Assembly: GCA_947643415.1 (NCBI GenBank)
Contig: CANRWA010000015.1
Location: 1 to 64,000, forward strand
Origin: an uncultured Clostridia bacterium
Lineage (GTDB): Bacteria; Bacillota; Clostridia; Lachnospirales; Lachnospiraceae
Length of the DNA: 64,000 bases
Direction of reading: 5' to 3'
The translations under genes and the position numbers were made by a program. Positions 19,556 through 41,372 of the stretch are shown here, in pieces. A model generated the notes under the pieces. It was not told the origin of the DNA and made no database searches. It worked only from the letters and a program-made list of their open reading frames with translations. The number at the start of each line of letters is the position of its first letter. The stretch's first letter is position 1.

Positions 19556-19587
19556 ATTATGGGTTTTCCATTTTATAATTTCCGATT

Positions 19588-19827: not shown

Positions 19828-19885
19828 AAAAATGTAGGGATTATGAGTTGTTTTTTTGACACCGTCATTAAGGAGATGTGGCTCT

Positions 19886-20485: not shown

Positions 20486-20519
20486 AAGTGTTTTCTATTG
20501 TTTCCTTTTAGGTTATTCT

Positions 20520-20790: not shown

Positions 20791-20906
20791 AAAGGTGCTC
20801 TATTTTACAAGTTCCGATTTATGTTGTGCTGCCAATTAAATTCTGATATAATAAATATTAAATTGTTGCTTCTGACAATAGTTTAATATAAGGGGAATAT
20901 AAGTTT

Positions 20907-21173: not shown

Positions 21174-21262
21174 GAATTAATTACTTAAACTTCCTACATT
21201 GAAAATTGGGAGGGTGGAAAAATTTTAGTTATTATACTATAGCAGCAAGGAGACATGATTAT

Positions 21263-21829
21263 ATGGAAGTATCTCATCACGAAAATGTTGCAGTGGATCA
21301 TGATTTAAAGACTATATGTCCTGAATGCGGCAAGGAACTTTTGGATCAGAATATGACATGCATGAATTGTGGGTTCGTTTTAAAGAAAGCAGCTTCCCTG
21401 TCTGATAAAAGAAAAAGGCTGGCATTTATTATTGTCATATCAGCGATAGCAGCAGTTTCCTTACTGGTCCTGTTATTCTATATGATAGTGGGAAATAGTA
21501 AAAAAAGATATGCCCAGAAACTGATCGAGGCTGATCTTGGCATAGATATATTATGTACAGCCGTTTATTATAATTCAGAGGATCAGTTGTGCTTTGTCGA
21601 TTTCCAAAAAGGAAATATAGAAGATGTAGCAATGGTGAATCTTGTTTCAAAGGAAATAGGGTATGACAGTGTATTGACAGAATATATAAGTGAGAGCGAA
21701 AAATATTCCGACTATAACTCAGAGGGATACCAGGAAGCTGCCAGGAAGATTGTCGGGTATGCGTATGATGTTACTGCGTATTATGCTGCCCAGGACGGAA
21801 GAGGTGGATGGAAGCAGGTATATCCTTAG
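21263..21829 (+). CDS. Zinc-ribbon single-pass membrane protein (cargo gene)
   Basis: 188 residues from the ATG at 21263 with AAGGAG 8 nt upstream. A cytoplasmic ribbon (CPECGKE...CMNCGFV, about 20-43) and a membrane helix (about 57-80) precede an extracellular domain ending in SDYNSEGYQEAARKIVGYAY. Its last 45 codons recur exactly at 24436-24566. Its stop overlaps the stop of a holin-gene remnant on the other strand, just as the 24.5 kb copy overlaps the intact holin. The original gene was therefore probably convergent with a holin. Confidence 0.7.
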   Translation: MEVSHHENVAVDHDLKTICPECGKELLDQNMTCMNCGFVLKKAASLSDKRKRLAFIIVISAIAAVSLLVLLFYMIVGNSKKRYAQKLIEADLGIDILCTAVYYNSEDQLCFVDFQKGNIEDVAMVNLVSKEIGYDSVLTEYISESEKYSDYNSEGYQEAARKIVGYAYDVTAYYAAQDGRGGWKQVYP

Positions 21830-21881
21830 AGATTGCTGTCGTCCCCTTCTGTGTTTTCGATAAATTGTTTGAACATCTGGT
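21826..21881 (-). pseudogene. 3' end remnant of a holin gene, copy 1
   Basis: Bases identical to the last ~18 codons of the intact holin at 24563-24838 (ending NTEGDDSNL), then divergence at 21882. It shows that a further copy of the holin once lay here. Confidence 0.75.
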
Positions 21882-21902
21882 ACTAAATAATTGAAATAAT
21901 AT

Positions 21903-21930
21903 TTGACAATATATTACATTATGTTACAAT
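21903..21930 (+). promoter_or_regulatory. Sigma-A-type promoter of a toxin-like locus
   Basis: TTGACA, 16-nt spacer, TACAAT, about 120 nt upstream of the small ORF at 22052. It is followed by a leader with hairpins, a layout typical of type I toxin genes. Confidence 0.55.
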
Positions 21931-22051
21931 AGTTACGGTGCTACCTAAAGTGGTAGGCGGTTAGTCCTTCTCTCAGAGGGACTGGCACCCTCTGTTTACA
22001 TAGATAATCTTCTCCGGGAGAAATATTTAAGTGAAGGAGGGGATTGCAGTT

Positions 22052-22171
22052 ATGTCTTTAGATCAGATTATTCAATTTGTGATAATGCTTACCTTACAGC
22101 AGTCGCCGGTTTGTTTTTTCAAATCGGTAAACGAAAATAACCGCCCAGGCTCCAATCTGATGCGGCTATAA
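22052..22171 (+). pseudogene. Frameshifted holin-like type I toxin
   Basis: AGGAGGGG lies 10 nt before an ATG that opens MSLDQIIQFVIMLT, typical of the short Hol_Tox/TxpA-like membrane toxins. The frame then goes off into a 39-residue product without a membrane tail. Adding one base after codon 14 restores a continuous hydrophobic helix and a basic end (LTAVAGLFFQIGKRK-stop), about 29 residues. The leader (21938-21967) and downstream sequence (22196-22222) are complementary over an 11-nt perfect match plus more, as expected for an antisense-RNA-controlled toxin. Confidence 0.5.
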
Positions 22172-22195
22172 CCATTTATATACTTATTCAATCTT

Positions 22196-22222
22196 GGACT
22201 AACCGCTTGCTATCGGTAGTAC
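22196..22222. ncRNA. Candidate antitoxin RNA region or pairing site of the toxin-like locus
   Basis: GGACTAACCGC here is the exact complement of GCGGTTAGTCC at 21957-21967 in the toxin leader. GGTAGTACC nearby matches GGTGCTACC imperfectly. This could be long-range mRNA pairing or the 5' part of an antisense RNA made from the minus strand. No promoter can be assigned with confidence. Confidence 0.35.
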
Positions 22223-22437
22223 CTTTTTATTCTTACCTTTCATTATTATTACATAAATAGATCCCTATGTCAATTATTTTCTTCGTTTCTTCCCTACAGC
22301 CAGGGTAATTCCGGGTCTTCGACACTTGTAAACTAAACTGTAGGGTACCTGTTACAGCAGGTGTCCTTCTTTACGTTCAATATACCAAAATCTGTGCAAA
22401 GTTTCAAATGCTTTCTTCTGGCAGTTTGTGTCACTTT

Positions 22438-22590
22438 TTTTTATTTCATTAGATATATTTGTAGCACTTTTTTATGGTTTCTTCCGTGTGGTGAAGTCAT
22501 TAGTTTGGTTATATTGTACAGCTTTAATATAAAAAGGACTTCCATTTATTTCTTACAAATGATATAGTAATTACATATAATTATTAGTTA
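22438..22590 (-). pseudogene. 5' remnant of a third tape-measure gene
   Basis: Bases closely match the upstream/5' region of tape measure 2 (30990-31145). On the minus strand the frame gives YIKAVQYNQTNDFTTRKKP followed by a stop, against AVQYNQNNDFTTWKEP for tape measure 2, and then NATNISNEIK-like sequence in the same register. Small deletions and a stop show it is dead. The flanking 22240-22437 and 22590-22737 hold no gene; an 8-bp stem CCCTACAG/CTGTAGGG is visible at 22300-22347. Confidence 0.65.
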
Positions 22591-22737
22591 TGCAGGAACG
22601 ATAACAAAACGTACTTCGTGGAACAACGTATTGTAAGCATCCCGCAGTCATGGCTTCATCCCATTGCCAGAGGCTTCTGTTGAGTTTTGCGCAGTCTGGA
22701 AAATGCAAATTTCTGCTTAATCGGCAGACACTATTTA

Positions 22738-22872
22738 CATCTGTATGTACCGTGTTTTATGTGGATAACAAAATTAAAGAAGACATTCAGTCGTACAATT
22801 AAATTTGAAAATATTTATAACATTATAACCGAGATGACCATAAGAGGTGGATGGGAGCAGGTATATCCTTAG
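22738..22872 (+). pseudogene. Chimeric remnant: deleted 180-residue cargo gene fused to a 188-residue gene tail
   Basis: The first part matches the membrane-segment codons of the gene at 23026 (CATCTGTATGT... GTGGATAACAAAA). After an internal deletion it matches codons for TIKFENIYNIITEMTI of that gene, and ends with the last codons of the 188-residue gene (GGWEQVYP). Three pieces of two different cargo genes are thus joined in frame by deletions. Confidence 0.65.
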
Positions 22873-22902
22873 AAATTGCTGTCGTCCCCTTCTATGTTTC
22901 AT
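22868..22902 (-). pseudogene. 3' end remnant of a holin gene, copy 2
   Basis: Sequence after the chimeric cargo remnant repeats the end of the holin gene (rc of AAATTGCTGTCGTCCCCTTC) and then diverges. It is the second dead holin tail in 1 kb. Confidence 0.6.
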
Positions 22903-23025
22903 TTTTTATAAGTATTCCAATCTTTATTAAATAGTGCTAAAGTTTTTTTCGTTTCATCAACAGAACTGTTTTTTGTGATAAAATCAGAGTCGTTTTAACA
23001 TATTTTAGTAAAGGAGTTAGTTTAA

Positions 23026-23568
23026 ATGAAAAAGAAAAAAAGTTTAGTGGTTATTGTGATAATCTTAGTTTTTATAGTTACATCTGTATGTGCTGTGTTT
23101 TTTGTAAATAACAAAAATGGCGAAGAAGTTCCCATAAACCATTTAGTAAATGCGATAAATAATCATAATGTTTCTGAAATACCAAAAGCGTTTCATGAAT
23201 ATTGCTCCCTGGCGATTGAGCAAAATATATCAGAAGAAGAATTCGATAATTATATTAATGGTATTTCACAGGATTTTGGTGAAAATTATCAAATTTCATA
23301 CAAAATTATTAGTATGAGCAGCATGTCAAAAGAAGACATTGAAATGTATGAAGATAATGCAAAGGCTATATACTCCAATTATCCTTACATTTCAAATGGT
23401 GGTACAATTAAATTTGAAAATATTTATAACATTACAACCGAGATGACCATAAAAGGAAAATATCAAGAAGAAAAAGGAAGTGTTGAATTTGCAGTAGTAA
23501 AAATAGATGATAACTACTATTTTTTACATATACCAAATCAAATAATGAGTACGTTTATAAATTATTAG
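23026..23568 (+). CDS. Membrane-anchored extracellular protein (cargo gene)
   Basis: 180 residues. A basic start (MKKKKS) leads into one hydrophobic helix (about 6-26) that has a Cys but no good lipobox, so it is more likely an anchor than a lipoprotein. The outside domain (30-180) has an alpha+beta pattern with NHLVNAINNHNVSEIPKAF and a closing strand region (EFAVVKIDDNYYFLHIP). AAGGAG precedes the ATG. No family recognised. A deleted copy precedes it at 22738-22872. Confidence 0.68.
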   Translation: MKKKKSLVVIVIILVFIVTSVCAVFFVNNKNGEEVPINHLVNAINNHNVSEIPKAFHEYCSLAIEQNISEEEFDNYINGISQDFGENYQISYKIISMSSMSKEDIEMYEDNAKAIYSNYPYISNGGTIKFENIYNITTEMTIKGKYQEEKGSVEFAVVKIDDNYYFLHIPNQIMSTFINY

Positions 23569-23648
23569 CTCAAATTTCCTATATTAAAAATGGAATTATA
23601 TCATACATGGATTTTATTTTGATAATATCATAACGGGGAGGAACTATA

Positions 23649-24215
23649 ATGAAAAAAATAATGGCGATATTAATGATTTGCATATTGTTTATTGCATGTT
23701 CATCATCTGTTGGGAGATTACCAATAAAAGATGGTGAGTTTGTGATTACTGTTGAGGAATTTTGTGAAAGATACAAAAAATGTGTAAGTAGCAATGATGA
23801 ATATGAAGGTATATCTTTAGGCGAATTAACTAAAGATGGAGAAATTTTTGATTACGAAATATTATATCAATCAGAAAAGACGGATACACATCTTGCATTT
23901 ATAAAAGGAGAAAGTAAAAATAATGTTAGAACAATTGCTTTGGTTGCAAGCAATCTGAAAGATAACGAAGATGCGAAGATTAGGAATAAAATAATGGAAC
24001 CATTTATAAAATCTTGTGATGATACTTTGTCACATGATGAGTTAAATGATATATTAGAAAAAATTTTTTCATCTAATATAGAAACAACACCGGAGATGAT
24101 TTTAGAAAATGATTTTCCTACTGAAACAACTGTTAGAAATGATATAATTTATGTCGGCTGGATACAAACGAAGCCATCTTTGACTTTTTCAATAATGGTA
24201 AATCCAAATGAGTAG
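23649..24215 (+). CDS. Lipoprotein (cargo gene)
   Basis: 188 residues with a lipoprotein signal peptide: MKKIMAILMICILF then lipobox FIAC at Cys19. The rest is an acidic soluble domain (LSHDELNDILEKIFSSN; DIIYVGWIQTKPSLTFSIMVN). GGGGAGGAA precedes the ATG. It follows the 180-residue gene by 80 nt on the same strand and is followed 90 nt later by the conserved 110-nt element. Function unknown; a role in self-protection or adhesion is only conjecture. Confidence 0.72.
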   Translation: MKKIMAILMICILFIACSSSVGRLPIKDGEFVITVEEFCERYKKCVSSNDEYEGISLGELTKDGEIFDYEILYQSEKTDTHLAFIKGESKNNVRTIALVASNLKDNEDAKIRNKIMEPFIKSCDDTLSHDELNDILEKIFSSNIETTPEMILENDFPTETTVRNDIIYVGWIQTKPSLTFSIMVNPNE

Positions 24216-24305
24216 AAGCTTTTCTAATTTGACTTCTAGCAAAGTAAGTTTGCTCAAAGATTGATGAAACTCTTTATGTTGTCCCTTAGAACAGTAAAGA
24301 TTTCT

Positions 24306-24420
24306 GTATTCATTACCCATTTTCGCTGGGGTCAGACTGTATATCACAACTACATACAATTACGACTGTGTGCAGTCAAATCTTGTCGGTCGTTGGGGGT
24401 TAAGGCGTGGATTACAGCAG
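24306..24420. repeat. Conserved 110-nt element, copy D
   Basis: Diverged copy of the element at 18781, 20520 and 32115 (GGGGTCAGACTGTATATC, then TACAATTACG.CTGT.TGCAGTC, then CGTTGGGGGTTAAG). Here it is joined directly to the remnant of the 188-residue cargo gene. Like the others it follows a plus-strand cargo gene. Confidence 0.7.
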
Positions 24421-24566
24421 CTTCCCTATCCGGTAAAAAATATTCCGACTATAACTCAGAGGGATACCAGGAAGCTGCCAGGAAGATTGTCGGGTATGCG
24501 TATGATGTTACTGCGTATTATGCTGCCCAGGACGGAAGAGGTGGATGGAAGCAGGTATATCCTTAG
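24421..24566 (+). pseudogene. Internally deleted copy of the 188-residue zinc-ribbon cargo gene
   Basis: Begins with codons matching KKAASLSDK and jumps to YSDYNSEGYQEAARKIV. From there it is identical to 21703-21829 and continues identically into the holin 3' end. Its TAG overlaps the holin stop codon on the other strand. Confidence 0.75.
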
Positions 24567-24838
24567 AGATTGCTGTCGTCCCCTTCTGTGTTTTCGATAA
24601 ATTGTTTGAACATCTGGTGCATACCAACAGATGCGAGTCCGGAAATCATGCCGCTGAGCATAATATCTGGGCTGATGTTCCAGTCATTGATCCATATGGA
24701 CATAATGACACCAATTATAGCGACAAATGTTGGAATGTACCGGTTATTGATATCATTGATCCATTGTTTCATGATATAGCCGGTGCAGAGACATATCCCA
24801 ACAATGACAGGCATCATAAAGTCATTTAAAAAGTTCAT
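24563..24838 (-). CDS. Phage holin
   Basis: 91 residues with three hydrophobic helices (about 8-20, 33-52 and 56-75) and a short charged tail (NTEGDDSNL), as in small class I/II phage holins of Clostridia. AGGAGGTG stands 6 nt before the ATG, which decides the start inside a much longer open frame. It lies 35 nt after the 174-residue membrane protein. It would form the membrane lesion that lets the endolysin at 1807-2745 reach the wall. Two dead 3' copies occur at 21.8 and 22.9 kb. Confidence 0.85.
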   Translation of the reverse strand: MNFLNDFMMPVIVGICLCTGYIMKQWINDINNRYIPTFVAIIGVIMSIWINDWNISPDIMLSGMISGLASVGMHQMFKQFIENTEGDDSNL

Positions 24839-24872
24839 GTTTCTCACCTCCTGTGATTGTGTAAATGTGTAG

Positions 24873-25397
24873 TTAAAACCCTTCTCGTAATTTTCGTTTA
24901 TAGTCGTCATAGATGATCTGCATTGAGACTTCGATCTCACCATTTTCCAGGTTATTTTCCTCCAGAAGTTTCTCGTATTTTTCATAGATGTGAATACAGT
25001 GTTTGTAGCTGTCTTTGTTGCATGGCCTGCCCTCGGAGACTCTTGTTGCGAAATTATTGATCTCCCAACGCATATCATCAATTTCTTTATCAATGAACAT
25101 TTTGGTGAGTTTTTTGATATCGCTGCGCATCCAGGCATCATACTGGTCAGACCGTTTCATGTCTTTCTTGTGCCGTTCCTGCAGGTCAGAGAGGTTTTGG
25201 GATGTTTTGACGAGGAGTTCATGTTCCTCGCGTCTTTTGCGCATCCATTTGGTTTCCAGACCCAGTTTTTCAACCGTCCACTCAAAGATGGAAGAGATAC
25301 TTTTTATTCCGATCAGTATACTGATGACAGAGAGGAAGACAGAGAGAAAGTCTGTTTTAGTTAATTCAATGATTGGTTCCATTTTGCTTAACACCAC
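24873..25397 (-). CDS. Phage membrane/coiled-coil protein beside the holin
   Basis: About 174 residues. One membrane helix near residues 16-38 (TKTDFLSVFLSVISILIGIKSI) is followed by a long charged helical region (HELLVKTSQNLSDLQERHKKDMK) and a Trp-containing C-terminal part. Proteins with this TKTDxxx...HELLxKTSQxLSDLQ pattern lie next to holins in Clostridia phages and may act like XhlA-type holin partners. The start is uncertain: GTG at 25397 or 25394, or ATG at 25382, because AAAGGTGT stands just upstream. Confidence 0.7.
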   Translation of the reverse strand: MVLSKMEPIIELTKTDFLSVFLSVISILIGIKSISSIFEWTVEKLGLETKWMRKRREEHELLVKTSQNLSDLQERHKKDMKRSDQYDAWMRSDIKKLTKMFIDKEIDDMRWEINNFATRVSEGRPCNKDSYKHCIHIYEKYEKLLEENNLENGEIEVSMQIIYDDYKRKLREGF

Positions 25398-31184: not shown

Positions 31185-32096
31185 ATGACAATAAAAAAGT
31201 GTCCTAAATGTGGTAAGGAATTTAGTGATATGGCAAAAAGTTGTCCCAATTGCAGTTATTCTATGAAAAAAACTGGTAAGTTTCTTAAATCAAAAGTACT
31301 CTTTCTATTATGTATATTTGCAATACTACTTATTAGTTCATCAGTATATTTGATATATTATCTTAACAGACCTTCATATAAACTGATAAAGGCGATTAAA
31401 AGTGGGGAATTAATTACAGCACAAACTATATATGATGAGTCTGTTAAAAAATATAATGATCAGTTGGATCAGACTTATGATGGAATATTGGAGTATTTAC
31501 CAGAATTAGTGTCTGGATTGGCAAAAGGGGATAGTGACTACTATGATGTGAAAGAGATAATTGGATTTGTGCAGAAAAATTTTCCTGAAGTTGATTTAAC
31601 TACATATGAAGAAAATATATCTAAAATAAATATATCAAAAGCATATTTTCATATAGCGGAAGAACAGAATGAGAAAAAAGAGTTTCTTAAAGCAATTGAA
31701 GGTTATGAAAATGTTTGTGAACTGGATTCAGAATATTATAAAAGGGCTCAAGAAAATATAATTGAATGCCGAAAAAAATATGCCAATGAAATTTTTAAAA
31801 AGATAAATAGTGTAGCAGAAGATAATCTTAAAAATGAATATATTCAAATTTCTGAGGAAATAAATAGTCAATCCTGGTTACTGGATAATGAGGAAGTTTC
31901 AAATGCATTTAATGCATTAAAATTAAGAGTAAAGGCAGAGGTTATACAACCTATACTTGATAAAGTTGATAAATATACTGAGAGAAGTGAATATGGTAAA
32001 GCAATTGGCTTGTTATATCAAAATATGAAATATGAAGTTGATAATATTTTATCTAATAAAATGGCAGTTGTTAAACAACAGCGCATTAGTGATTAG
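31185..32096 (+). CDS. Zinc-ribbon membrane protein with TPR-like extracellular part (cargo gene)
   Basis: 303 residues. A Cys4 ribbon (CPKCGKE...CPNCSYS, residues 5-25) and a membrane helix (about 36-57) are followed by a long helical extracellular or periplasm-facing domain with TPR-like repeats (YFHIAEEQNEKKEFLKAIEGYENVC). GTAGGAGGAATAAA precedes the ATG. It is divergent from tape measure 2, with 216 nt between the starts. The long direct repeat C begins 19 nt after its stop. Confidence 0.75.
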   Translation: MTIKKCPKCGKEFSDMAKSCPNCSYSMKKTGKFLKSKVLFLLCIFAILLISSSVYLIYYLNRPSYKLIKAIKSGELITAQTIYDESVKKYNDQLDQTYDGILEYLPELVSGLAKGDSDYYDVKEIIGFVQKNFPEVDLTTYEENISKINISKAYFHIAEEQNEKKEFLKAIEGYENVCELDSEYYKRAQENIIECRKKYANEIFKKINSVAEDNLKNEYIQISEEINSQSWLLDNEEVSNAFNALKLRVKAEVIQPILDKVDKYTERSEYGKAIGLLYQNMKYEVDNILSNKMAVVKQQRISD

Positions 32097-32114
32097 AGGA
32101 ACTTAGGTTTTTCT

Positions 32115-32890
32115 GTAATAAGTTACCCACTTTCATGGGGGTCAGACTGTATATCACAACTACATACAATTACGCCTGTATGCAGTCAAACCTTGTCAGT
32201 CGTTGGGGGTTAAGACGTGGCTTACAGTACCACACCTATCTGTCATTACCATGACAGACTTAGCCTTTCCCTGCTTTCGGTGTGCCAGAATATGGCACAC
32301 CTACCTATAGATCAGCCATTCCTTTTCGTATTGTTATATAAATGCATATATGCAGATCAGAAGATATAACAGATACAAAAGCATAAATTGTTACTTAGAC
32401 TCTCATCATATAACATACCATATATGTTTCTTTCTGCTTTTCAGCACCATTGCCGTTTGCTGTTTCCGGCTCCGTTTTGGATTATATATGGTCTTTAGGC
32501 TTTCCAGCATATTCGGTTTTTATAATTTATGTAATTAAGGGTATCCATCTTATTTTATGTGGCTGATGCTCCCGTCCGTTGATTGCATGGCATTATTATG
32601 TAACCTTAGAGGGGTGGGCGCAGTACGGTCTACCACAGGAACTTCGTACGTTCACCAATACCTTCGGTAATGCTTTGTGTGACAGCATTACGGATCTGTG
32701 TCTTTAAGACGGAAATAGAAGAAGGATCTATTTCCGTCTGGATTTTTAGGTTATTGTCGTTTTTGGGCATTTTGCACCATTCCTTTCTGTGTTTTATAGT
32801 AGTCATGATATCCATTACTGTATATATACGAAGCTGAAAATGCTTTGGAAGCACTTGATAATGGGAAGAACCAGGGATTTTCTGAATCAA
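32115..32890. repeat. Long direct repeat, copy C (about 770 bp)
   Basis: Near-identical to copy A at 18781-19555, in the same orientation. The two copies bound a 12.6-13.3 kb segment holding tape measure 2, the holin genes and most cargo genes. It includes the conserved 110-nt element (32115-32234) and the 46-codon minus-strand ORF. The remaining gap to 33095 is the upstream region of the next lipoprotein gene. Confidence 0.88.
32630..32770 (-). pseudogene. Truncated 46-residue ORF inside repeat C
   Basis: Same sequence as the ORF at 19295-19435: start MPKNDNNLKIQTEID with an AAAGGAATGG ribosome binding site and a premature end. Likely the stump of a deleted structural gene. Confidence 0.4.
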
Positions 32891-33095
32891 ACAAATTTCA
32901 TAAATTGATTTTTCGTATATGCATCATTCTTCTCTATGTTTTAATAGGTTGTGTATATTTGTTGTATCATAATGGGTGCAATTCTGTTTATAAAGTATAA
33001 AATTTAGTATCATGAACATGTAGAATTATTCTTGACTAATTTGAAATGAGAGGAGTATAATAGAATCAAGATAGTTATAAGGATGGTGTTCATAA

Positions 33096-33746
33096 ATGAA
33101 AAAAGCATTATTAGTTTTCCTGGTGTTTTCTTTATTGGCAATGGGATGTGATTCTACACTAAGAGAATCAGATTTTAGTAGTTTTCAAAATGATTTATCT
33201 TCTGTTTTAGGTTCAATATCTAACGTCAATGACAAAAGTGATAAAGTATATAATATTGTTTATGAAGTATGGGATAATAATGGTCCAGATTATGTGATAA
33301 ACGATTTGGCATTAATGTATAGCTTGGAGGATGCAGATAGTTTAGCTGAAACATCTAGTAGTCGCTTATTCTCAGGTCGGATTGAGGAAATTCTAGGAAT
33401 AAATATGATGGATACTATTTATGATTACGAAACACCAATGGATTGGGGGAAACGTACAGGAGCATTTGACAGGGTTTTTGAGTATTGTCAAGTATATAAA
33501 ACCCAATATGATGAACTGTACGGAGCTAAAATTACTTTAGAGTCACAGGTTAAAAATTTTAAAAAAGATTATGAATCTAATCAACAGATAATAACAGAAT
33601 TAGTATCTGATTTATATGTAAAAACATGTTCTTATGCTGATTTGGTGTTGAATCCTACGGGAAGTTTGATAACATATACATCAGATATTAATGATATTAA
33701 ATCAGAAATAAAGGAGTTAAAATCAAAAATTGAGTTAGAAAAGTAA
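33096..33746 (+). CDS. Lipoprotein (cargo gene)
   Basis: 216 residues with a lipoprotein signal peptide (MKKALLVFLVFSLLAMGC, lipobox Cys18). The mature part is acidic and helical with an Asp/Tyr-rich middle and a coiled-coil C-terminus (DINDIKSEIKELKSKIELEK). AAGGATGGTG precedes the ATG. It is convergent with the major tail protein gene, 95 nt between stops. No family recognised. Confidence 0.72.
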   Translation: MKKALLVFLVFSLLAMGCDSTLRESDFSSFQNDLSSVLGSISNVNDKSDKVYNIVYEVWDNNGPDYVINDLALMYSLEDADSLAETSSSRLFSGRIEEILGINMMDTIYDYETPMDWGKRTGAFDRVFEYCQVYKTQYDELYGAKITLESQVKNFKKDYESNQQIITELVSDLYVKTCSYADLVLNPTGSLITYTSDINDIKSEIKELKSKIELEK

Positions 33747-33841: not shown

Positions 33842-34855
33842 TTATTCTACTACTACAATAACCTCATCTGATACACCCTGATAGGTAACAGTGATCTTTG
33901 CAGAACCGCTTGCCACAGCAGTGACAACGCCGGTACCATCTACAGTAGCCACAGAAGGTGTGTCGCTTACGAATTCACAGGCAGCATTCTCCAATTCCAC
34001 AGGAGAGTAGAGTGAGCCCTTGAGGCCAATTACGGAGAGTGTGGCAGAAGCAGAGCCTGTCATATCCAGATTGACCGTTGCCGGTGTAGCGGCAATTTCG
34101 AGGACGGAAATAGCGCTTGCGGTTTCATCAAATTCCTTGATGTAAGCATAGACATTTCCTTCAGAGCAGCAGTCGTTCTCAACGGCAAGAGCCTTTCCTT
34201 CCAGGCTGGTGGAGGTCGCGCCGTCTGGTGTGAGCTCGATATTGAAATTACCATTTAACTGATAGGAAGGGATCGTGATCTGTACGCTGCCCACTTTGCC
34301 GAGTTTGTTATTATGCTTGTCTACATCCAGAACAAGGCGGCCACACATTGGTACCGTGTCAGAATCAATGGTGATGGATTTTGCCATTCTGTTATAGCGG
34401 TATGTTGCTCTGGCACAGTCCCCCTCGTTTGTCAGGCCGTAAGCAGTCAGGTCAATCTTGCCATCGGCAGGGGTGACCGTTACGAAGGAACCATTAGGCA
34501 GTTCGACTGCGACATCACCGACCGGGGCTGCACTCAGGGCACCGATGCCATCAGTCAGTGAGACATGCTCACCAAGCTTGTAAACATCCGTCATGCCTTC
34601 TGTAATCTTAGAACCGGATGCCATGGCGAGGTATTCCAGCCTCCAGTCAGCAGCTTCCAGGGTGGCGCTGAGTTTTCTTCCATATTTGAAGGAATAGACC
34701 AGCTTATTGCCCTTTCCTGCGTTGACTTCCTGTTCCTCTGTCGTTACCTCAAGAGATGTGTTGAGGTTTGTTGTTCCGGTACAGGCAAGGACATCACCTA
34801 CATAGAAGGCGAAATCTGCTGTACTTACCAAAAAGTTTTTTGTGTTGTTTTCCAT
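33842..34855 (-). CDS. Major tail tube protein with C-terminal Big2 domain
   Basis: 337 residues. The first ~240 residues fit a siphophage major tail protein (LEVTTEEQEVNAGKGNKLVYSFKYGRKLSATLEAADWRLEYLA; later GSVQITIPSYQLNGNFNIEL). Residues about 255-337 are a Big2 Ig-like domain (ATPATVNLDMTGSA...DTPSVATVDGTGVVTAVASGSAKITVTY), a common surface decoration of tail tubes. AGTGAGGAAAA precedes the ATG. It follows the chaperone candidate by 16 nt. The next minus-strand structural gene, tape measure 2, is about 2.9 kb away across a cargo block. Confidence 0.85.
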   Translation of the reverse strand: MENNTKNFLVSTADFAFYVGDVLACTGTTNLNTSLEVTTEEQEVNAGKGNKLVYSFKYGRKLSATLEAADWRLEYLAMASGSKITEGMTDVYKLGEHVSLTDGIGALSAAPVGDVAVELPNGSFVTVTPADGKIDLTAYGLTNEGDCARATYRYNRMAKSITIDSDTVPMCGRLVLDVDKHNNKLGKVGSVQITIPSYQLNGNFNIELTPDGATSTSLEGKALAVENDCCSEGNVYAYIKEFDETASAISVLEIAATPATVNLDMTGSASATLSVIGLKGSLYSPVELENAACEFVSDTPSVATVDGTGVVTAVASGSAKITVTYQGVSDEVIVVVE

Positions 34856-34871: not shown

Positions 34872-35630
34872 TCATAGTTTTCTTTTTAATGAATTTTCAT
34901 CGGTTTTCAGATCTTTGTACCTATCCTCTTCTTCAAAGGATGTCATCCAGTGTTTCAATGGTTCCTTAAAGGAGACCATGCCACTGCATTCACCTGTTTT
35001 GGCGATAGTATAGCTCTCACGGAGCTGGTAACGTTTGATATAGCGCCAGAATTTGCGTATGGTCATATTCATGATCCTGTCCTCGGTGGTATTCATGGCG
35101 ATCACAAGAGAATCAATATAGTCTTCTATGTTTGACCTGCTTTCACTTTTGTCCAGGTCTTTTCTGGCTTTTTGCAGCCGCTGTTCTGTGTCATGGTGCA
35201 GAAATTCATCCATATCAAAATCAATATCGTTCTGAATGATAATGATACGTCTCAGGTCGTCGAATATTTTAGGCGTAATACATTCCTGATTGATAAGGAT
35301 CTGGCCTGTCTGCTGGCCGATCTGTATGTCTGCATCCTGGCAGCATAGCTGAAGGAGCTTTACAGCATACAGGAAGTACTGAGAGAGACCGGGGATCTGA
35401 TATTGGATTTCCAGTTCTTTGTTGCCGAGGCAGTATAGAAGGAATTCCAGGTAGGACATCTTGATGATCTCTTTCTCGTGGAATGTACTATTCTTCCGCA
35501 CCGTCAGTGACTGGGAAAGGAACTGGAAAGTCAGAACATCTTTCATTGTAACCGGATACAGTGTGATCTTGTCATTATATGGTATCTCTTTGTTGAAGAT
35601 AACATATGAGAAGAGTGATTCATTTGTCAT
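34872..35630 (-). CDS. Tail assembly chaperone candidate
   Basis: 252 residues from the ATG preceded by AAAGGAGG; a longer frame to 35687 has no ribosome binding site. Layout: N-terminal strand region (YNDKITLYPVTMKDVLTF), a helical core with SYLEFLLYCLGN, a middle FDDLRRIIIIQNDIDF, and a C-terminal region IRKFWRYIKRYQL...KTGECSGMVSFKEPLKHWM. This layout resembles tail-chaperone proteins of Firmicutes phages (gpG/gpT functional analogues). The position next to the major tail protein fits. No frameshift extension is evident. Confidence 0.6.
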   Translation of the reverse strand: MTNESLFSYVIFNKEIPYNDKITLYPVTMKDVLTFQFLSQSLTVRKNSTFHEKEIIKMSYLEFLLYCLGNKELEIQYQIPGLSQYFLYAVKLLQLCCQDADIQIGQQTGQILINQECITPKIFDDLRRIIIIQNDIDFDMDEFLHHDTEQRLQKARKDLDKSESRSNIEDYIDSLVIAMNTTEDRIMNMTIRKFWRYIKRYQLRESYTIAKTGECSGMVSFKEPLKHWMTSFEEEDRYKDLKTDENSLKRKL

Positions 35631-35911
35631 GGTTTTCCTCCTTTGTAGTCTTGTTGTGCTGAGAGATTGTTCCGGATGACAGAACACAGGCGGCAGTTCT
35701 CCCAGAAAGGGAGGCGCTGCCGTCTGGCAGCCTGGCGGAGGGTATGAATGGGTGGTGCCAGGCTTGAAGAAGAAGGTCTGGCAGTATGGCCAGAGCCAGA
35801 GATAGGAAACTCAACGGGTTTGGGTGACGCCGCTGAGTGAAAGAAATGATATCCACTACTGTATATATACGCAGCCAGAAATGGGTGTAAAGTGCCAGGG
35901 GAGGGAGAGGA
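35631..35911. promoter_or_regulatory. Intergenic region with GTATATATAC motif
   Basis: No convincing gene. It carries a GC-rich, hairpin-prone part (35660-35830) and, near 35855-35875, GATATCCACTACTGTATATA. The same GATATCCA.TACTGTATATATAC motif recurs in repeats A, B and C (around 19480, 20692 and 32810). It lies ahead of the chaperone and tail-tube genes on the minus strand, so it may be a promoter or processing signal, possibly for the resident phage-type RNA polymerase. Confidence 0.35.
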
Positions 35912-36751
35912 TCAGGATTTTTCTAAATCAAACATACGTTTGGCTTTTGCGCTGATGCGTGCTCTTTCCCGGTTGACTGAAACAGCACAATCTTTACAGT
36001 ATTTGATCCTGTTATTTGTCTTTTCAACGAGCCTGCCGCAGACCGCACACCGTATATAAGATCTGTGGTCACGGATGCCATAATAATGTTTCTGCCATTT
36101 CTTCATCGCACCCTCCAGTGACCGGCAGAAATATTTTATATAGAAGTTATCCTCGTTCAGGAAATCATAGATATTTCCAGCCGCTTCTTCTTTTTCACAA
36201 TCTCCGATGAGCTGGCAGGTGTCAAAGATCTTCTGCAGGAATCCTTCCATTACTTTTTTGTATTCTTTCCAGGAGAGTTCCATTTTCTGATTCTGGTAGA
36301 TGATATATTTATTTTCAGCTTCTGCCATGGCACCCTGGATCTGGGAGGTAACTTCCTCCGGCGTCATGTCTTTTCCTACTTCCCACTGGAAATAAAGCTG
36401 CTTCGGTGTCTGTAAGAGACGGATATAATCTTTATTTAGTATAATGTTCCGGTCAAAGTATCTGGTATAGAGATTGTTGATCTTCTGGCGGATCAGGCTG
36501 CACCAGTCTGTATTCTTTGTGCGGGAGCAGTAACCATTGTATCCGATGTTCGTCCAGGGCAGGAAGACTTGTCCGGTAGCTGTTTCCAGCAGATCCTTCC
36601 GGACGGAAAAGCGGATCATGTTTGTGTGGGTGCGTCTTTTGTTGCTGCTTGCCCAGAGGGAGGAGCAGAATGACTGGAAGATCTCATTCCTTTCCCTGTC
36701 GGAGACAGCATATTTGTAGTCTTCTATGATTTCATATAAGTATAATTCCAT
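35912..36751 (-). CDS. Phage protein with C-terminal zinc ribbon
   Basis: 279 residues. Mainly helical; Trp/Tyr-rich in the first half (FLPWTNIGYNGYCSRTKNTDWCSLIRQKI). It ends in a Cys4 ribbon (CAVCGRLVEKTNNRIKYCKDC, about 236-256) followed by a basic helix. AAGAAGGGAAGG precedes the ATG. It follows the RNA polymerase gene by 51 nt and is likely co-transcribed. A DNA- or RNA-binding partner of the polymerase is possible but not shown. Confidence 0.62.
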   Translation of the reverse strand: MELYLYEIIEDYKYAVSDRERNEIFQSFCSSLWASSNKRRTHTNMIRFSVRKDLLETATGQVFLPWTNIGYNGYCSRTKNTDWCSLIRQKINNLYTRYFDRNIILNKDYIRLLQTPKQLYFQWEVGKDMTPEEVTSQIQGAMAEAENKYIIYQNQKMELSWKEYKKVMEGFLQKIFDTCQLIGDCEKEEAAGNIYDFLNEDNFYIKYFCRSLEGAMKKWQKHYYGIRDHRSYIRCAVCGRLVEKTNNRIKYCKDCAVSVNRERARISAKAKRMFDLEKS

Positions 36752-36802: not shown

Positions 36803-39367
36803 TTAACAGTTCCTATGTTCATAGTGCTTTCCGAGGTATTCATACGATGTATCTGTGGGGACAGGGACTTCCCGGATGGATATCCTCTGCCCCGGAGAAG
36901 AATGTTCTTTCAGGTTTTTAATGATATAATCTCCATAACCTGTCCATGCCAGTGACCTGCTGACAGATAGGTTCCTGTAAGAGACAGAGATCACATAGTT
37001 GGCGATGGTTTCTTCATCCAATCCAAGATCATGCGCCAGGCGGTCTTTAAACTGCCGGACTACTTCCTGCATCTGGAACTGGTGGTCTCCATCATCAGAG
37101 TCCTTTTGAAGCTTCATATGCCTGCGCATTTCATCTGCATATGCATTGACGGCGCGCCGGACGGTGCGGAGGATTGACCGGTCAGAGAGATCAATGCCAT
37201 CTTTTAGGATCAGCGGCCGGACCTGCTCCAGGTCTGTCTTGCTGTGATCCCACAAAATATGTTTTTTCTCCCAGGCACATATATAATTACACAATTCGTT
37301 CATGGGCGAGGGGGAGTGATAGGCATTCAGCTTGAGCTTATCCTCTTTGTTTGGGATATTCCGGTTCTTCTCTGTCAGTTTTTTATACTTCTCCATATGG
37401 ACGGGATAGTTGTGGAGCAGGAAATAGGGAAGTTGTTTCATGTGTTTCCGAAGTCCCTGATGCATATGCCACCGGACTCCTGTCTTGAGAAAATCAATTT
37501 CTTTTCCCTGGAAGATGCGGAGAAGGGAGGCGTAGTCGGAATATAATTGTCTTATTTCCTCCTTTGTTGTGTATTGATTCTCAATGCTGGTTGCCACATT
37601 GGTGATCTCACCAATCCGGCTGTCCCGTGTCATAATCTCATATTCTATGATATTTTCTTCTGTATAGGGTTTGGACTCTGCTGTGATCTTGTCCTCAATA
37701 TCAAGAATAATCGGTTTCTCGATCTTCGATCCGGTCAGGCACGGATCATCACAGAGAAAGAATATATCTCCATCAAAGTCGGCGCCCCCCTGTTGTGGTG
37801 CGGATATATCGTACATATTGAACATCACGATATCTTGGTCCTGAAAGCAGCGAAACCAGTTATCGGTTGTTTCATTCCGGATAATCTTTATCTTGTTGAC
37901 CTCGGATGGGTCTACCAGCGGTGAGCGGAAGGAGAGGACATCGCCCTGATCCAGTATACTGCTGTATAATTCACCTGCCCTCAGACATCCCACCGGGGTT
38001 TCTCCGGCGGCAAACTGCAGGTAGCCGATCATATCGCCCACGCCGGTATGATAGAAACCGGAACTATATATTTTTCCTACCTTTGCCTCATCGATGGATT
38101 TCTTTAACTTCCGGTATATAAATTGTTTCACAGCGGGATCTTTCAACATATCTTCATTTATAAGGACGGCTTCCAGATAGCGGCTCTTTGGTTTATGGTT
38201 CTGTGTGTCATGGATGCCCATATATTTATAAGTGTAAAATGGCTTACCGTCTATGATTTTCTCAAAAAGGCCTGTGGTGTATCTTGCCAGGCGGATGATC
38301 TTTCCATCATGGGCCGGGTCAAGGATATCATAATCCCTGTTCGCTCTGTCTTCGCAATAGTCAATATAATCCGGATTCCACAGGTCAAGGCACTGGAGGT
38401 ACTGGAAATTCATACGGGTATATCGGTTGATGTGCCGGATATGGTGGCTGTATTTGCTGATCCCCAGTTTAAACTGGTATTTATCCAGGGTTTCCATATA
38501 GGCTGTCCATGCCTGATCTCCATATTTTTTCCTGAATATCCCATGTCCCTTAAACATAGAAATATTCCAGATACAGTCTATGGTATCAATGGGATGGCTG
38601 TGCCCATAAATATCTGTGATGGAGCGATATCCCCATTCTTTCAGTATTTTCCGGAATGGTACATACACGGAGTAACCTTTCATGAAAGGAAGGCGGATCT
38701 GTGTTCCTGCTACATCATAGTCCAGGTCCAGTTCTTTTCTTACATGTTCCATAAATTCATGTTCATGGCAGCCGCATCCGTCAAAAGGGGAGATTTCCAG
38801 ATCCCTGTAACCTTCCCGGATCTCCCTTTTCCGCTCCTGCGTAGCGACATATTTGATATACTGGCCAGGCAGGATCTTTTTATATTCGTCTATGATCACG
38901 ATATTAGGCATATAGTTCCGGATCAGGGTACAGGAACTGAATACCAGGCACCTCTGCGCCTCATATTTGGATATGACACATTCATCTACTTTAATATCCA
39001 TCTGCGTGATGTCGTACAGTCTGTCAAAGAGGCTGTCACATACAAATGCAGTGATGCCTGCCTTGCCCTGTGATGCGGACTTGCCAAAGCGCTTATAGTG
39101 GATCCCATTGTAGAAAAATCCTTCTTTCAATAAACGCCGCAGATCCTTTTCCTGTTTGGGGTTCTTCTTTGCCACCACAAGTATGATCTCGCTGATATGG
39201 CTGCTGGCATTGCCACGGAGCCGTTCAATCTGATCAAATAGAAGAGAATCTTCCTGCGCCACCAGGTATTCCTTTTGAATCTCCTCTTCCCTGCTGATGG
39301 TGACATTAAATTCCTGTGAGATAATTTCTTTTACCGGAACCTTTACCAGTGTATATTGTTTTGTCAT
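36803..39367 (-). CDS. YonO/QDE-1-like two-barrel RNA polymerase
   Basis: 854 residues. The catalytic loop of the double-psi beta-barrel RNA polymerase family is clear: GGADFDGDIFFLCDD, with Asp530, Asp532 and Asp534 placed to bind Mg2+. It is preceded by VLSFRSPLVDPSEV and DIVMFNMYD, which match the RPxLxPxD...DVIVF pattern of the PF05183 superfamily. That superfamily includes eukaryotic RNAi polymerases and SPbeta YonO, a single-chain DNA-dependent RNA polymerase for phage late genes. AGGAGG lies 7 nt before the ATG. It is the first gene of the minus-strand operon behind an SOS-type promoter. Its likely job is to transcribe the long tail operon. Confidence 0.88.
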   Translation of the reverse strand: MTKQYTLVKVPVKEIISQEFNVTISREEEIQKEYLVAQEDSLLFDQIERLRGNASSHISEIILVVAKKNPKQEKDLRRLLKEGFFYNGIHYKRFGKSASQGKAGITAFVCDSLFDRLYDITQMDIKVDECVISKYEAQRCLVFSSCTLIRNYMPNIVIIDEYKKILPGQYIKYVATQERKREIREGYRDLEISPFDGCGCHEHEFMEHVRKELDLDYDVAGTQIRLPFMKGYSVYVPFRKILKEWGYRSITDIYGHSHPIDTIDCIWNISMFKGHGIFRKKYGDQAWTAYMETLDKYQFKLGISKYSHHIRHINRYTRMNFQYLQCLDLWNPDYIDYCEDRANRDYDILDPAHDGKIIRLARYTTGLFEKIIDGKPFYTYKYMGIHDTQNHKPKSRYLEAVLINEDMLKDPAVKQFIYRKLKKSIDEAKVGKIYSSGFYHTGVGDMIGYLQFAAGETPVGCLRAGELYSSILDQGDVLSFRSPLVDPSEVNKIKIIRNETTDNWFRCFQDQDIVMFNMYDISAPQQGGADFDGDIFFLCDDPCLTGSKIEKPIILDIEDKITAESKPYTEENIIEYEIMTRDSRIGEITNVATSIENQYTTKEEIRQLYSDYASLLRIFQGKEIDFLKTGVRWHMHQGLRKHMKQLPYFLLHNYPVHMEKYKKLTEKNRNIPNKEDKLKLNAYHSPSPMNELCNYICAWEKKHILWDHSKTDLEQVRPLILKDGIDLSDRSILRTVRRAVNAYADEMRRHMKLQKDSDDGDHQFQMQEVVRQFKDRLAHDLGLDEETIANYVISVSYRNLSVSRSLAWTGYGDYIIKNLKEHSSPGQRISIREVPVPTDTSYEYLGKHYEHRNC

Positions 39368-39437: not shown

Positions 39438-39449
39438 GAATATATGTTC
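39438..39449. promoter_or_regulatory. LexA (SOS) box, near-consensus, over the RNA polymerase promoter
   Basis: On the minus strand CGAACATATATTC fits the Gram-positive LexA consensus CGAACRNRYGTTCG with one arm mismatch. It overlaps the -10 of the minus-strand promoter. Confidence 0.65.
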
Positions 39450-39466
39450 GAAAAATATGTTGACAA
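39439..39466 (-). promoter_or_regulatory. Promoter of the RNA polymerase/tail operon
   Basis: Minus strand: TTGTCA (39466-39461), 16-nt spacer, TATATT (39444-39439), 71 nt upstream of the polymerase ATG. Its -35 shares bases with the -35 of the divergent plus-strand promoter. Confidence 0.6.
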
Positions 39467-39488
39467 TAAAGAACAAGTGTTCTATAAT
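39460..39488 (+). promoter_or_regulatory. Consensus promoter of the sigma-like gene
   Basis: TTGACA (39460-39465), exactly 17 nt, TATAAT (39483-39488): perfect sigma-A consensus. The spacer contains the LexA box at 39471-39482. It lies 107 nt before the GTG start of the sigma-like gene. Confidence 0.82.
39471..39482. promoter_or_regulatory. LexA (SOS) box between -35 and -10
   Basis: GAACAAGTGTTC, flanked by A and T, is a perfect palindrome in its arms and fits GAACRNRYGTTC with no mismatch. Its place inside the promoter spacer predicts tight repression until DNA damage. Confidence 0.78.
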
Positions 39489-39594: not shown

Positions 39595-40155
39595 GTGGAA
39601 AAGATCATCCATGTTTATTATGAGAACAATGCCATTAAGCTTCGCAGGATGGTAGACCAGATACTGAAACGGTTCGGCCGGATACCTGACAGGGAGGATT
39701 TCTATTCCCTGGCAAATGAAGTATTTGCAGAAGTTCTGAAAAAATATGATTCGTCAAGATCATTTGATGCATTCCTGTATTCCTGTCTCTGCAACCGGAT
39801 CAAGAGTGAGATACGGCGGCGGAACAGAGATAAACGGAGGACAGACCATCTGTCCGTCTCCTTTGATGTGCTGCTTGATAATGAAACCGGGCAGATGCTG
39901 GGAGATCTGCTTGCCTGTCCATTTGACCTGGAGAAAGAAGTGATCGGAGAGGACGATTTTGGCGATTCAAAGATCGAAAAATATCTCCAACGGTTATCGA
40001 AACGGCAGAGGGCAGTTGTACAGTTACTGGCCGCCTCTTACCGGGCAGGCGAGATTCAGGAGATACTGCATATCACGAGGAAAGAATATTCTGATGCGAT
40101 GACAGGGATACGGTCTTATGAAAATGTTTCGGTGCTTTTTAGAAACTGCAGTTAG
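39595..40155 (+). CDS. Sigma-70-like factor
   Basis: 186 residues from GTG, with AGGGGG 8 nt upstream. Region-2-like part: DREDFYSLANEVFAEVLKKYDSSRSFDAFLYSCLCNRIKSEIRRRNRDKR. Region-4-like helices near the C-terminus (LSKRQRAVVQLLAASYRAGEIQEILHITRKEY), where a helix-turn-helix would read a -35 element. Small phage or mobile-element sigma factors of this kind turn on structural genes. It sits behind an SOS-boxed promoter, divergent from the RNA polymerase gene. It may direct host polymerase to the tail or cargo promoters. Anti-sigma or target sites are not identified. Confidence 0.75.
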   Translation: MEKIIHVYYENNAIKLRRMVDQILKRFGRIPDREDFYSLANEVFAEVLKKYDSSRSFDAFLYSCLCNRIKSEIRRRNRDKRRTDHLSVSFDVLLDNETGQMLGDLLACPFDLEKEVIGEDDFGDSKIEKYLQRLSKRQRAVVQLLAASYRAGEIQEILHITRKEYSDAMTGIRSYENVSVLFRNCS

Positions 40156-40280: not shown

Positions 40281-41372
40281 ATGGAATTAGTGAGAGACAG
40301 ACGGGTAAAAGATGCCTATATGAATTCAACAATACAAAATATGTTTTATCGGGGGGAACTGAGGAAGGACCACCCTCTGCAGCGGAAACCGGACCAGTGG
40401 AATAAGAAGGATAAAGACGCTCTGATCGCAACGGTTCTGAAAGATGAAGACATTGACTCCATTAAGGTGTGTGAGCAACTGACTGAAAATGGTGCTGCCC
40501 TGTGGGTGATCGATGGCCTGCAGAGGCTTACTGTACTGGACGGTTACCGTAACGGCGCATTTAAGTTGGGGAAGAAGATCGAATTCCCGGTTCTTGTATA
40601 CCAAAAGGTGAAAAGAGATGGTAAGGGAAGGATAGCAAGGGATGGGAAGGACAATTACATATATGAAAAGGCGGAATTTGACATCAGGGGAAAAGGCTAT
40701 GGGGATCTGCCAGATGAATTGAAGGAAAGATTTGATCATTACAAGATAGATGTAGTAAAGCATCTGGATTGCTCAGATGAGGAGATCGGGTACCATATAC
40801 GAAGGTATAACAGGCAGAAGTCCATGACGGTATCACAGAATGCGGTTTCCTATATGGACAACATAGCCGGGGAGGTAAAGAAGATCTCATACAATAACCG
40901 GTTTTTCCGGGAATATGATATTTATACCGAAAGAGAAAAAAGTAATGGGACGATAGAGAGGATCGTTATTGAATCGGTTATGTGCATGTATCATCTGGAG
41001 CATTGGATGGAGCAGAGCCACAGGATTGCCGCCTATCTGAACCGGTTTGCGGATAAGGATGAGTTTGCCAGGTTAGACAGCAACCTGCAGAGGCTTGGGA
41101 ATATTTATGAGAATCGTTTTCAGCCTATATTCTCTTCTAAGGACTCTTTTATCTGGTTTACCCTGTTTGAAAGGTTTACTGCCCTGCCTTTTGAGGATAC
41201 CCGGTTTGCCGGTTTTCTCAGGGCTTTTCAGGATGGATTGTGCAGAAGGAAAGTTGCCGGGGAATGTTTTGTCCAAATTGATAGGAAGAGATCTGCCAAT
41301 GATAAAGCTACGGTCATGAAAAAACTGACCATTCTTGAGACATTACTGTATGGGTTTCTTCATATTCCTTGA
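40281..41372 (+). CDS. DUF262/ParB-like protein
   Basis: 363 residues. The N-terminal 100 residues carry the DUF262 pattern: LQRKPDQWNKKDKDALIATVL...WVIDGLQRLTVLDGY, the last part matching the DGQQRLT box of GmrSD-type and ParB/sulfiredoxin-fold nucleotide-binding domains. The rest is helical, without the DUF1524 HNH nuclease found in full GmrSD restriction enzymes. AAAGG with a 10-nt spacer precedes the ATG. It follows the sigma-like gene on the same strand. It may be a regulator or defence-derived protein; the activity is unknown. The fab promoter overlaps its stop codon. Confidence 0.65.
   Translation: MELVRDRRVKDAYMNSTIQNMFYRGELRKDHPLQRKPDQWNKKDKDALIATVLKDEDIDSIKVCEQLTENGAALWVIDGLQRLTVLDGYRNGAFKLGKKIEFPVLVYQKVKRDGKGRIARDGKDNYIYEKAEFDIRGKGYGDLPDELKERFDHYKIDVVKHLDCSDEEIGYHIRRYNRQKSMTVSQNAVSYMDNIAGEVKKISYNNRFFREYDIYTEREKSNGTIERIVIESVMCMYHLEHWMEQSHRIAAYLNRFADKDEFARLDSNLQRLGNIYENRFQPIFSSKDSFIWFTLFERFTALPFEDTRFAGFLRAFQDGLCRRKVAGECFVQIDRKRSANDKATVMKKLTILETLLYGFLHIP

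Follow-up and report, generated by a model that had tools for sequence, protein, structure and literature searches.

We describe a tail-only gene locus headed by its own single-chain RNA polymerase of the YonO/QDE-1 type, in DNA from an uncultured, gut-type Clostridia bacterium of the family Lachnospiraceae (assembly GCA_947643415.1). The stretch analysed, called the window below, comprises the first 64,000 nt of contig CANRWA010000015.1, which has 69,825 bp in all. The locus is probably a tailocin-like element of the F-type, non-contractile and without a head, that belongs to the SPbeta/PMBT24 phage lineage, has kept its own polymerase, is controlled by LexA, and transcribes its tail and lysis genes with the aid of a companion protein, c3. 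As known from its genes, it has what is expected of an F-type tailocin, namely a non-contractile tail module without recognised head or packaging genes, together with its own holin and CHAP endolysin. A preliminary description of this DNA had proposed a tailocin-like element with its own single-subunit polymerase; the proposal is now supported by the fold of the enzyme, by the assignment of the head genes found elsewhere in the genome to a separate prophage, and by the recurrence of the locus, with tailocin itself as a presumptive term. Sequences and structural models underlie the polymerase identity and fold, the gene content, the lack of recognised head genes, the recurrence, the LexA-like boxes, a shared motif and the purifying selection described below.

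A two-barrel RNA polymerase heads the locus

The open reading frame (ORF) of the polymerase is intact and is the sole match to its sequence within its own genome. Its earlier assignment as an 854-residue two-barrel polymerase was borne out. PF05183 (RdRP) matched with E 2.4e-17 (63.3 bits against a cut-off of 23.8; best stretch, residues 410–692) and phrog_8308 with E 4.6e-61, while tblastn recovered SPbeta-type phages, including annotated yonO (E ~1e-10), Thomasclavelia phage TR-TP1 (E 1e-79) and Enterocloster phage PMBT24 (E 2e-36). In the proposed DFDGD loop at residues 530–534, D530, D532, G533 and D534 are invariant in 26 of 26 aligned sequences, whereas F531 varies.

The AlphaFold model of the polymerase (mean pLDDT 88, pTM 0.85) was compared with the PDB by Foldseek, a structural check that the preliminary description had called for. 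The 21 best matches are the two-barrel polymerases RDR2 and QDE-1 (E 8.6e-19 to 1.6e-14; TM by query 0.43–0.55), followed by the phage polymerases P74 gp62 and P32 gp64. The RDR2 and QDE-1 superpositions are loose, with a root-mean-square deviation of 9–12.5 Å across the whole chain. At the sequence level, phmmer against the PDB sequences found no polymerase, its sole row being a ribosome recycling factor (E 0.079), and NCBIfam has no family for the polymerase, c3 or the first two tail genes.

According to the accessible text of its report, YonO of SPbeta is a DNA-dependent polymerase that transcribes the late structural and lysis genes, and its promoter was left open (PMC5467207). The position of the window gene and the motif described below suggest that the window enzyme likewise performs DNA-dependent transcription of late genes. 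It is highly improbable that it is instead an RNA-acting enzyme, such as an RNAi-like or defence polymerase with an incidental tail neighbourhood. Such a role would fit the Pfam name, RNA-dependent RNA polymerase, and the RNAi enzymes that head the structural matches; against it stand the DNA-dependent activity of YonO, the position of the polymerase before late genes in phages and tail-only loci alike, and the motif shared before these late genes.

The tail module lacks recognised head and packaging genes

On the minus strand, the polymerase is followed by c3, a PMBT24-like gene, the major tail protein gene, tape-measure-like gene 1, a small gene and the holin gene, and then by tape-measure-like gene 2, a Dit-type gene, an S74 fibre gene, four related receptor-type genes and the CHAP endolysin gene (Table 1). 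The main tail ORFs are intact, as is that of the polymerase. This gene content agrees with the preliminary description, which had placed the polymerase first in a minus-strand operon with tail, holin and lysin genes, whereas the single unbroken operon does not stand: two plus-strand blocks of small genes (~31185–33746 and ~18282–24566) break the run. To the right of the polymerase lie a sigma-like gene, a DUF262/GmrSD_N-like gene and then fatty-acid synthesis genes.

Profiles for TerL, portal, YonJ-exonuclease and capsid, started from PMBT24, TR-TP1 and SPbeta, were run over 79 polymerase loci. Terminase was matched in 11 of them, the portal in 9 and the exonuclease in 17 (18 exonuclease matches). 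Loci were classed as tail-only if a major tail protein lay within 10 kb and terminase, portal and YonJ-exonuclease matches were all lacking, and as phage-class if any such match was present; all 11 terminase-positive loci are phage-class. After 14 of the 79 had been set aside (duplicates, near-copies and six short loci of distant homologues), 65 loci were counted: 32 tail-only, 17 phage-class and 16 too short or unclear (unclassified). Near relatives were kept among them, such as L103 and L113, which have an identical polymerase.

The window matches neither the terminase nor the portal profile, in line with the earlier statement that the locus lacks these genes, and no YonJ-exonuclease match was found in it. 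General family scans of the window proteins, covering all but some small ORFs, detected no integrase, again as first described, and no contractile machinery or sheath family. Two other identities of the locus were considered and rejected. An intact SPbeta-like prophage does not fit the lack of a TerL or portal match in the window (the capsid profile is uninformative and the left contig end is near), and a gene transfer agent does not fit a locus in which head and packaging genes were not found.

Thirteen tail-only loci have at least 20 kb of downstream sequence (the window, G305, G306, G312, G302, G300, G311, G314, G318, G319, G299, G253 and G273), and none of them shows a TerL, portal or YonJ-exonuclease match within 40 kb; in the other 19, the sequence ends sooner and a distant head is possible. 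G305 is a complete chromosome, that of [Clostridium] asparagiforme DSM 15981. In PMBT24, TR-TP1 and SPbeta, the polymerase precedes the terminase and portal genes. In G301 (bacterium 1xD42-87), exonuclease, terminase and portal lie between c3 and the tail clusters c16, c11, c17, c32, c8 and c58, and in G302 the same six tail clusters come directly after c3.

Capsid or terminase genes of the same prophage elsewhere in the genome would, by the preliminary description, speak against its reading, and terminase genes were sought there. Terminase_6N has no match in the genome, and phrog_2 finds a single terminase, on contig C6. This gene is part of a separate prophage (L121, G000:C6:50001-70000) that has its own head and contractile tail (terminase, portal, protease, head proteins, sheath and tape measure), and it therefore does not supply the head that the locus lacks. 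A terminase profile drawn from the polymerase-bearing phages gave matches in 3 of 21 genomes: strong ones in the two of the phage class and a weak one to the C6 gene (E 1e-7). Across 22 genomes, Terminase_6N is present in 10 (3 phage-class, 6 tail-only and 1 unclassified). In G306, the matching gene is encoded on the strand opposite to the polymerase, ~37 kb past it, within a minus-strand run that includes a 1194-residue gene of its own; we read this region as a neighbouring prophage.

These head genes bear on the idea that the locus is half of a split phage, or a satellite, whose tails join heads from another prophage or from genes elsewhere. Borrowing of parts is known among phage satellites, the same genome houses another prophage that has a head module, and the other Terminase_6N genes of the six tail-only genomes could be counted in the same direction. 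The C6 prophage, however, has its own contractile tail, the terminase type of the polymerase-bearing phages was not found in 19 non-phage genomes, bar the weak C6 match, and the window proteins scanned include no integrase. A divided phage or satellite is thus very unlikely.

The locus recurs and is under purifying selection

The linkage of polymerase and tail genes, which the preliminary description had suggested looking for in other Lachnospiraceae, recurs there and beyond, with 45 related loci among genome contigs and 20 among viral contigs. In the same family, 12 of 299 genomes match at E 1e-10, five of them, the own genome included, above 60% identity; in the genus, 3 of 39 congeneric genomes carry the locus, all three beside fabD and fabG. 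htpG was tried as a left-end marker of the locus and dropped, as in the three carriers it is followed by another, carB-like gene (both gene names are presumptive).

A tree of 52 full-length polymerases intersperses tail-only with phage rows and shows 8 changes. A reduced tree of 35 rows (27 tail-only, 8 phage), which drops 9 unclassified and 8 further rows, mostly with long branches or odd composition, forces at least 6 changes and rejects a single tail-only clade, a group named after the 52-row tree had been seen (approximately unbiased test, p 4e-40). Given that the tail-only loci are not one clade, the switch, or an exchange of polymerases between phages and tail loci, happened several times. 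The window falls within a supported set of 14 rows, all tail-only (97/96), and the tree indicates that a lasting tail-only lineage exists.

Compared with the sister species (G312), dN/dS, the approximate ratio of non-synonymous to synonymous substitution rates, is 0.096 for the polymerase, 0.094 for c3, 0.062 for the major tail protein, 0.090 for Dit and 0.195 for tape measure 2, and lies within 0.06–0.20 across these genes, the first tail gene and the fibre. A degenerate remnant, left when a phage with a YonO-type polymerase lost its head genes and now decaying, would also lack head genes and could show the patchy distribution seen among the congeners. It is difficult to reconcile with these ratios, with the intact ORFs, with a polymerase closely followed by the major tail protein in 32 of the 65 loci, with the supported set of 14 tail-only rows, and with boxes and a motif conserved within fast-changing spacers, and we consider it quite unlikely.

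The receptor-type genes are among the fastest changing, with dN/dS 0.17–0.34 for three window genes, each compared with one and the same sister-species gene. Their pace, and the many carriers labelled as gut bacteria, might point to a tail-derived device for delivery or injection to other ends, for example into eukaryotic cells, rather than a bacteriocin. We regard this as unlikely: no effector gene was recognised among the proteins scanned, no contractile machinery was found in the same set, and the holin and CHAP endolysin, like the SOS-type boxes, are in keeping with a tailocin.

LexA-like boxes and a sigma factor accompany the polymerase

Between the polymerase and the sigma gene, two LexA-box-like palindromes coincide with two divergent promoters of the sigma-70 type (Table 1); a consensus scan of the region for such promoters gave 5 sites against 1.1 expected. 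The GAACNNNNGTTC core, which we take to be the LexA/DinR box core of Bacilli and Clostridia, is present as an exact box just before the likely start of the genome's own recA. Box pairs, defined as 26–36 bp apart with one box exact and the other with at most 1 mismatch, were sought in the 65 loci: 22 pairs lie in the 148,650 bp upstream of polymerases versus 1 in 1,416,330 bp elsewhere. By class, they occur in 18 of 32 tail-only, 0 of 17 phage-class and 4 of 16 unclassified loci. The candidate boxes are of the type found before the host recA, and the polymerase may be under SOS (LexA) control.

The sole pair outside the polymerase upstream regions is in L062 (G305), ~+30.1 kb from the polymerase, and may belong to another SOS gene. 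A different type of regulator was seen in L079 (1286-2305; G314, Paenibacillus lutrae), a tail-only locus without the LexA pair, in which an MrpR-type regulator (PF22822/PF22823) lies upstream of the polymerase. A 345-aa upstream protein of another locus matches no Pfam family.

A sigma and/or DUF262 homologue lies upstream of the polymerase in 21 of 32 tail-only loci, none of the 17 phage-class loci and 6 of 16 unclassified ones. In several other loci, the sigma and DUF262 profiles both match one long ORF. For one such protein of 587 residues, Pfam reports GmrSD_N (below the cut-off) at 250–380 and no sigma domain, so that a sigma–DUF262 fusion is indicated there by the profile alone. The pair may boost or gate expression. 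A comparable association is described for C. perfringens, in which the neighbour of a bacteriocin gene is UviA, a sigma factor with a LexA site, in the available part of that report (PMC4459074).

c3 and a candidate late promoter

The c3 protein is a candidate initiation factor of the polymerase; Foldseek gave no PDB match for it at E 0.001. The spacer that separates c3 from the first tail gene contains a block of 31 bp without a single difference among three species, against 43% identity in the remainder of the aligned piece. The motif of this candidate promoter is referred to as the TATATATACAGTARTGGATA or TATATATACAGTA-type motif. The window holds four copies, the three extra ones sharing a longer repeat with a remnant that resembles the 3' end of c3.

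A motif profile built from 23 collected sites was scanned over 66 loci (the classes being those of the 65 loci, plus L102). It gave 41 matches, 40 of them on the operon strand, against 3 in one block-shuffled set. Thirty-nine fall within the element, downstream of the polymerase, and together they cover 33 of the 66 loci; 22 of the 39 are sites used for the profile and 17 are not. The motif was found in 19 of 33 tail-only, 9 of 17 phage-class and 5 of 16 unclassified loci, and most of the sites near c3 lie 28–76 nt past its stop codon.

An exact-motif search of viral contigs yielded 14 stretches on 13 contigs, 6 with the polymerase and/or c3 alongside and 7 with neither in the stretch examined. 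We rejected this motif-first scan as independent proof: five of the six contigs had already been found via the polymerase, and the c3 piece of the sixth (L136) is identical to that of L113.

Other features of the locus and its relatives

Table 1. Features of the polymerase–tail locus, with window coordinates
Feature	Position	Strand	Evidence or remark
YonO/QDE-1-type single-chain RNA polymerase, 854 aa, DFDGD 530–534	36803–39367	-	PF05183, phrog_8308, tblastn, alignment, AlphaFold, Foldseek
c3, 279-aa polymerase companion	35912–36751	-	in 62/79 loci; C-terminal zinc-site type cysteines
31-bp block between c3 and first tail gene, GCGTATATATACAGTAGTGGATATCATTTCT, candidate late promoter for the polymerase	35842–35872	-	identical in three species; motif profile
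Extra copy of late-promoter motif, 1 mismatch	32807–32828	-	motif profile
Extra copy of late-promoter motif, 1 mismatch	20686–20707	-	motif profile
Extra copy of late-promoter motif, 1 mismatch	19472–19493	-	motif profile
Putative tail completion type gene, homologue of the PMBT24 gene directly before the major tail protein	34872–35687	-	gene cluster c27
Major tail protein with Ig domain	33842–34855	-	phrog_2729 E 8.5e-22; clusters with annotated PMBT24 major tail protein
Tape-measure-like protein 1, 1753 aa	25707–30968	-	reaches SPbeta YomI only via G318/G319 homologues
Holin	24563–25141	-	profile matches, Phage_holin_5_2 and phrog_1129
Tape-measure-like protein 2, 1709 aa, followed by Dit-type gene	12993–18122	-	gene clusters, comparison with relatives
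Distal tail (Dit-type) protein, DUF6558	12117–12959	-	family match
Tail fibre with S74 chaperone domain	7594–12147	-	family match
Four related receptor-binding-type proteins	3564–4493, 4565–5605, 5672–6790, 6803–7594	-	cluster c2; BppU_N only in 6803–7594
CHAP endolysin with SH3 domain	1807–2745	-	family matches
Sigma-70/ECF-type factor, divergent from polymerase	39595–40155	+	PF04542 and TIGR02937, both above cut-off
DUF262/GmrSD_N-like protein	40281–41372	+	PF03235 E 5e-7, below curated cut-off
Pair of LexA-box-like palindromes in the polymerase–sigma gene spacer, 33 bp apart	GAACACTTGTTC 39471–39482; GAACATATATTC 39438–39449	both read on -	
Sigma-70-type promoter toward sigma gene, TTGACA-17-TATAAT	39460–39488	+	consensus match 12/12; LexA-like box in spacer
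Sigma-70-type promoter toward polymerase, TTGTCA-16-TATATT	39439–39466	-	consensus match 10/12; second LexA-like box over -10
Small lipoprotein-like protein, N-terminus MKKALLVFLVFSLLAMGC	33096–33746	+	candidate immunity protein
Zinc-ribbon protein, one transmembrane segment	31185–32096	+	candidate immunity protein
Second opposite-strand block, by tape measure 2	18282–24215	+	among its small genes, 18282–18728 of zinc-finger type, no transmembrane segment
Second block, one transmembrane segment each	19856–20485, 21206–21829, 23026–23568	+	
Second block, lipoprotein-like	23649–24215	+	

The two large tape-measure-like proteins match no PHROGs family and are linked to SPbeta YomI at modest E-values, solely through homologues in G318 and G319. 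Their genes are 32–47% identical in segments, and the sister species (G312) has one such gene in the stretch examined; two divergent tape-measure-like genes might give two tail lengths.

Each of the plus-strand blocks lies by a tape-measure gene, and in the sister species one opposite-strand gene is present in four tandem copies. The Ltp lipoprotein of a Streptococcus phage is described, in the accessible part of its report, as excluding phages through interaction with the tape measure protein (PMC3952083). The small opposite-strand genes by the tape measures may serve to protect the producer through their membrane-anchored products.

Polymerase genes of some related loci are interrupted. Rfam recognises a Group I intron (RF00028; 50.7 bits, gathering score 50) at L053:2551-2854, within the gene of a Butyrivibrio tail-only locus. 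In L044 and L045, both from Roseburia, an insert carrying ORFs on the opposite strand splits the gene at the DxDGD motif (residues 529–530); L044 has no Rfam intron match. A Pistol ribozyme lies upstream in a polymerase-bearing prophage locus (L056:286-372, minus strand). A 70% identical polymerase is found on a short contig of a metagenome-assembled genome labelled as an actinomycete (L016), possibly a binning error.

Discussion

Among the closest known systems is SPbeta, in which, as far as the available text goes, a single-chain two-barrel polymerase also stands before the late genes for structure and lysis (PMC5467207). The phage itself is complete, with the portal gene yonE and the terminase gene yonF, whereas no head module was found in the window locus, which has LexA-like boxes and the sigma/DUF262 pair. 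Moreover, a candidate promoter is proposed here for polymerases of the window type, while none is settled for YonO in that text (PMC5467207). In PMBT24 and the phages TR-TP1/2, the polymerase likewise comes before the late genes, and PMBT24 shares the major tail protein and the preceding gene. These phages differ from the window locus in having terminase and portal between polymerase and tail, and the TR-TP1 and PMBT24 stretches show neither the LexA pair nor sigma/DUF262 genes upstream. The Thermus phage P23-45 has two-barrel polymerases, gp64 and gp96, with promoter motifs of their own; in the part of the report available, it is a complete phage, the gp64 motif is GC-rich and no headless locus appears (PMC10770324). 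F-type tailocins are described, again in part of the source, as headless flexible phage tails under SOS control and released by lysis (PMC10538166), to which the window locus corresponds in its tail and lysis genes and, possibly, in its control. The C. perfringens uviA/bcn system resembles the locus in having a sigma factor with a LexA-binding site next to a bacteriocin gene, but bcn is a plasmid bacteriocin gene and the accessible text mentions no phage-type polymerase (PMC4459074). In the open-licence literature searched, no tailocin with its own or a phage-encoded RNA polymerase was found, in Lachnospiraceae or elsewhere.

Several points weigh against a LexA-controlled, headless tailocin-like element. 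The locus touches the contig end, with the window starting at base 1 of the contig, and its left end is thus not closed. The capsid profile matched just its three seeds and is hence uninformative, six tail-only genomes, including G306, carry some other Terminase_6N gene, and 6 of the 17 phage-class loci were classed by exonuclease alone. The Fisher values for the class contrasts ignore shared ancestry, and the dN/dS values are rough, dS being near saturation, with tape measure 1 and some other genes saturated. As to regulation, the spacing window for the box pairs was set after the first matches had been seen, and the strict pair is absent in 14 of 32 tail-only loci, of which 4 have a pair with one mismatch on each side and 10 have neither. 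The upstream box of the genome's own lexA has one mismatch and lends little weight, because its 3.6-kb stretch holds five such matches. Sigma/DUF262 genes are missing from 11 of 32 tail-only loci. Finally, the motif was not found in SPbeta beside the published YonO start region (best, 5 mismatches) and is below threshold in 33 of the 66 loci, some of them cut short, including the tail-only G305, G273, G311 and G314; other branches would therefore need other promoter sequences.

Taken together, we still favour the tailocin-like element, and the following order of regulatory events is proposed for it, in which promoter use, the roles of c3 and the sigma/DUF262 pair, killing and immunity are all conjectural. 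LexA would keep the two back-to-back host-type promoters shut until DNA damage led to its removal. The host RNA polymerase would then produce the YonO-type polymerase and c3 on one side, and the sigma factor and DUF262 protein on the other. The phage-type polymerase, perhaps guided by c3, would start at the TATATATACAGTARTGGATA motif and transcribe the tail and lysis genes, and holin and endolysin would free headless tails that act on related bacteria.

An own polymerase in an SOS-boxed, tail-only locus would be a new arrangement, and the recurring clusters point to an unrecognised class of tail-like particles. More tentatively, and with considerable doubt, this could be a repeatedly formed class of tailocins in Clostridia, and in at least one Paenibacillus, built from a portable YonO-type polymerase, a c3 initiation factor (possibly sigma-2-like) and the TATATATACAGTARTGGATA promoter, mostly under LexA and with a membrane-anchored immunity protein for each tape measure. 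If the locus is indeed a tailocin with its own polymerase, some tailocins would not rely on the host RNA polymerase for their structural genes, and a dedicated enzyme would read tens of kilobases of DNA in its place.

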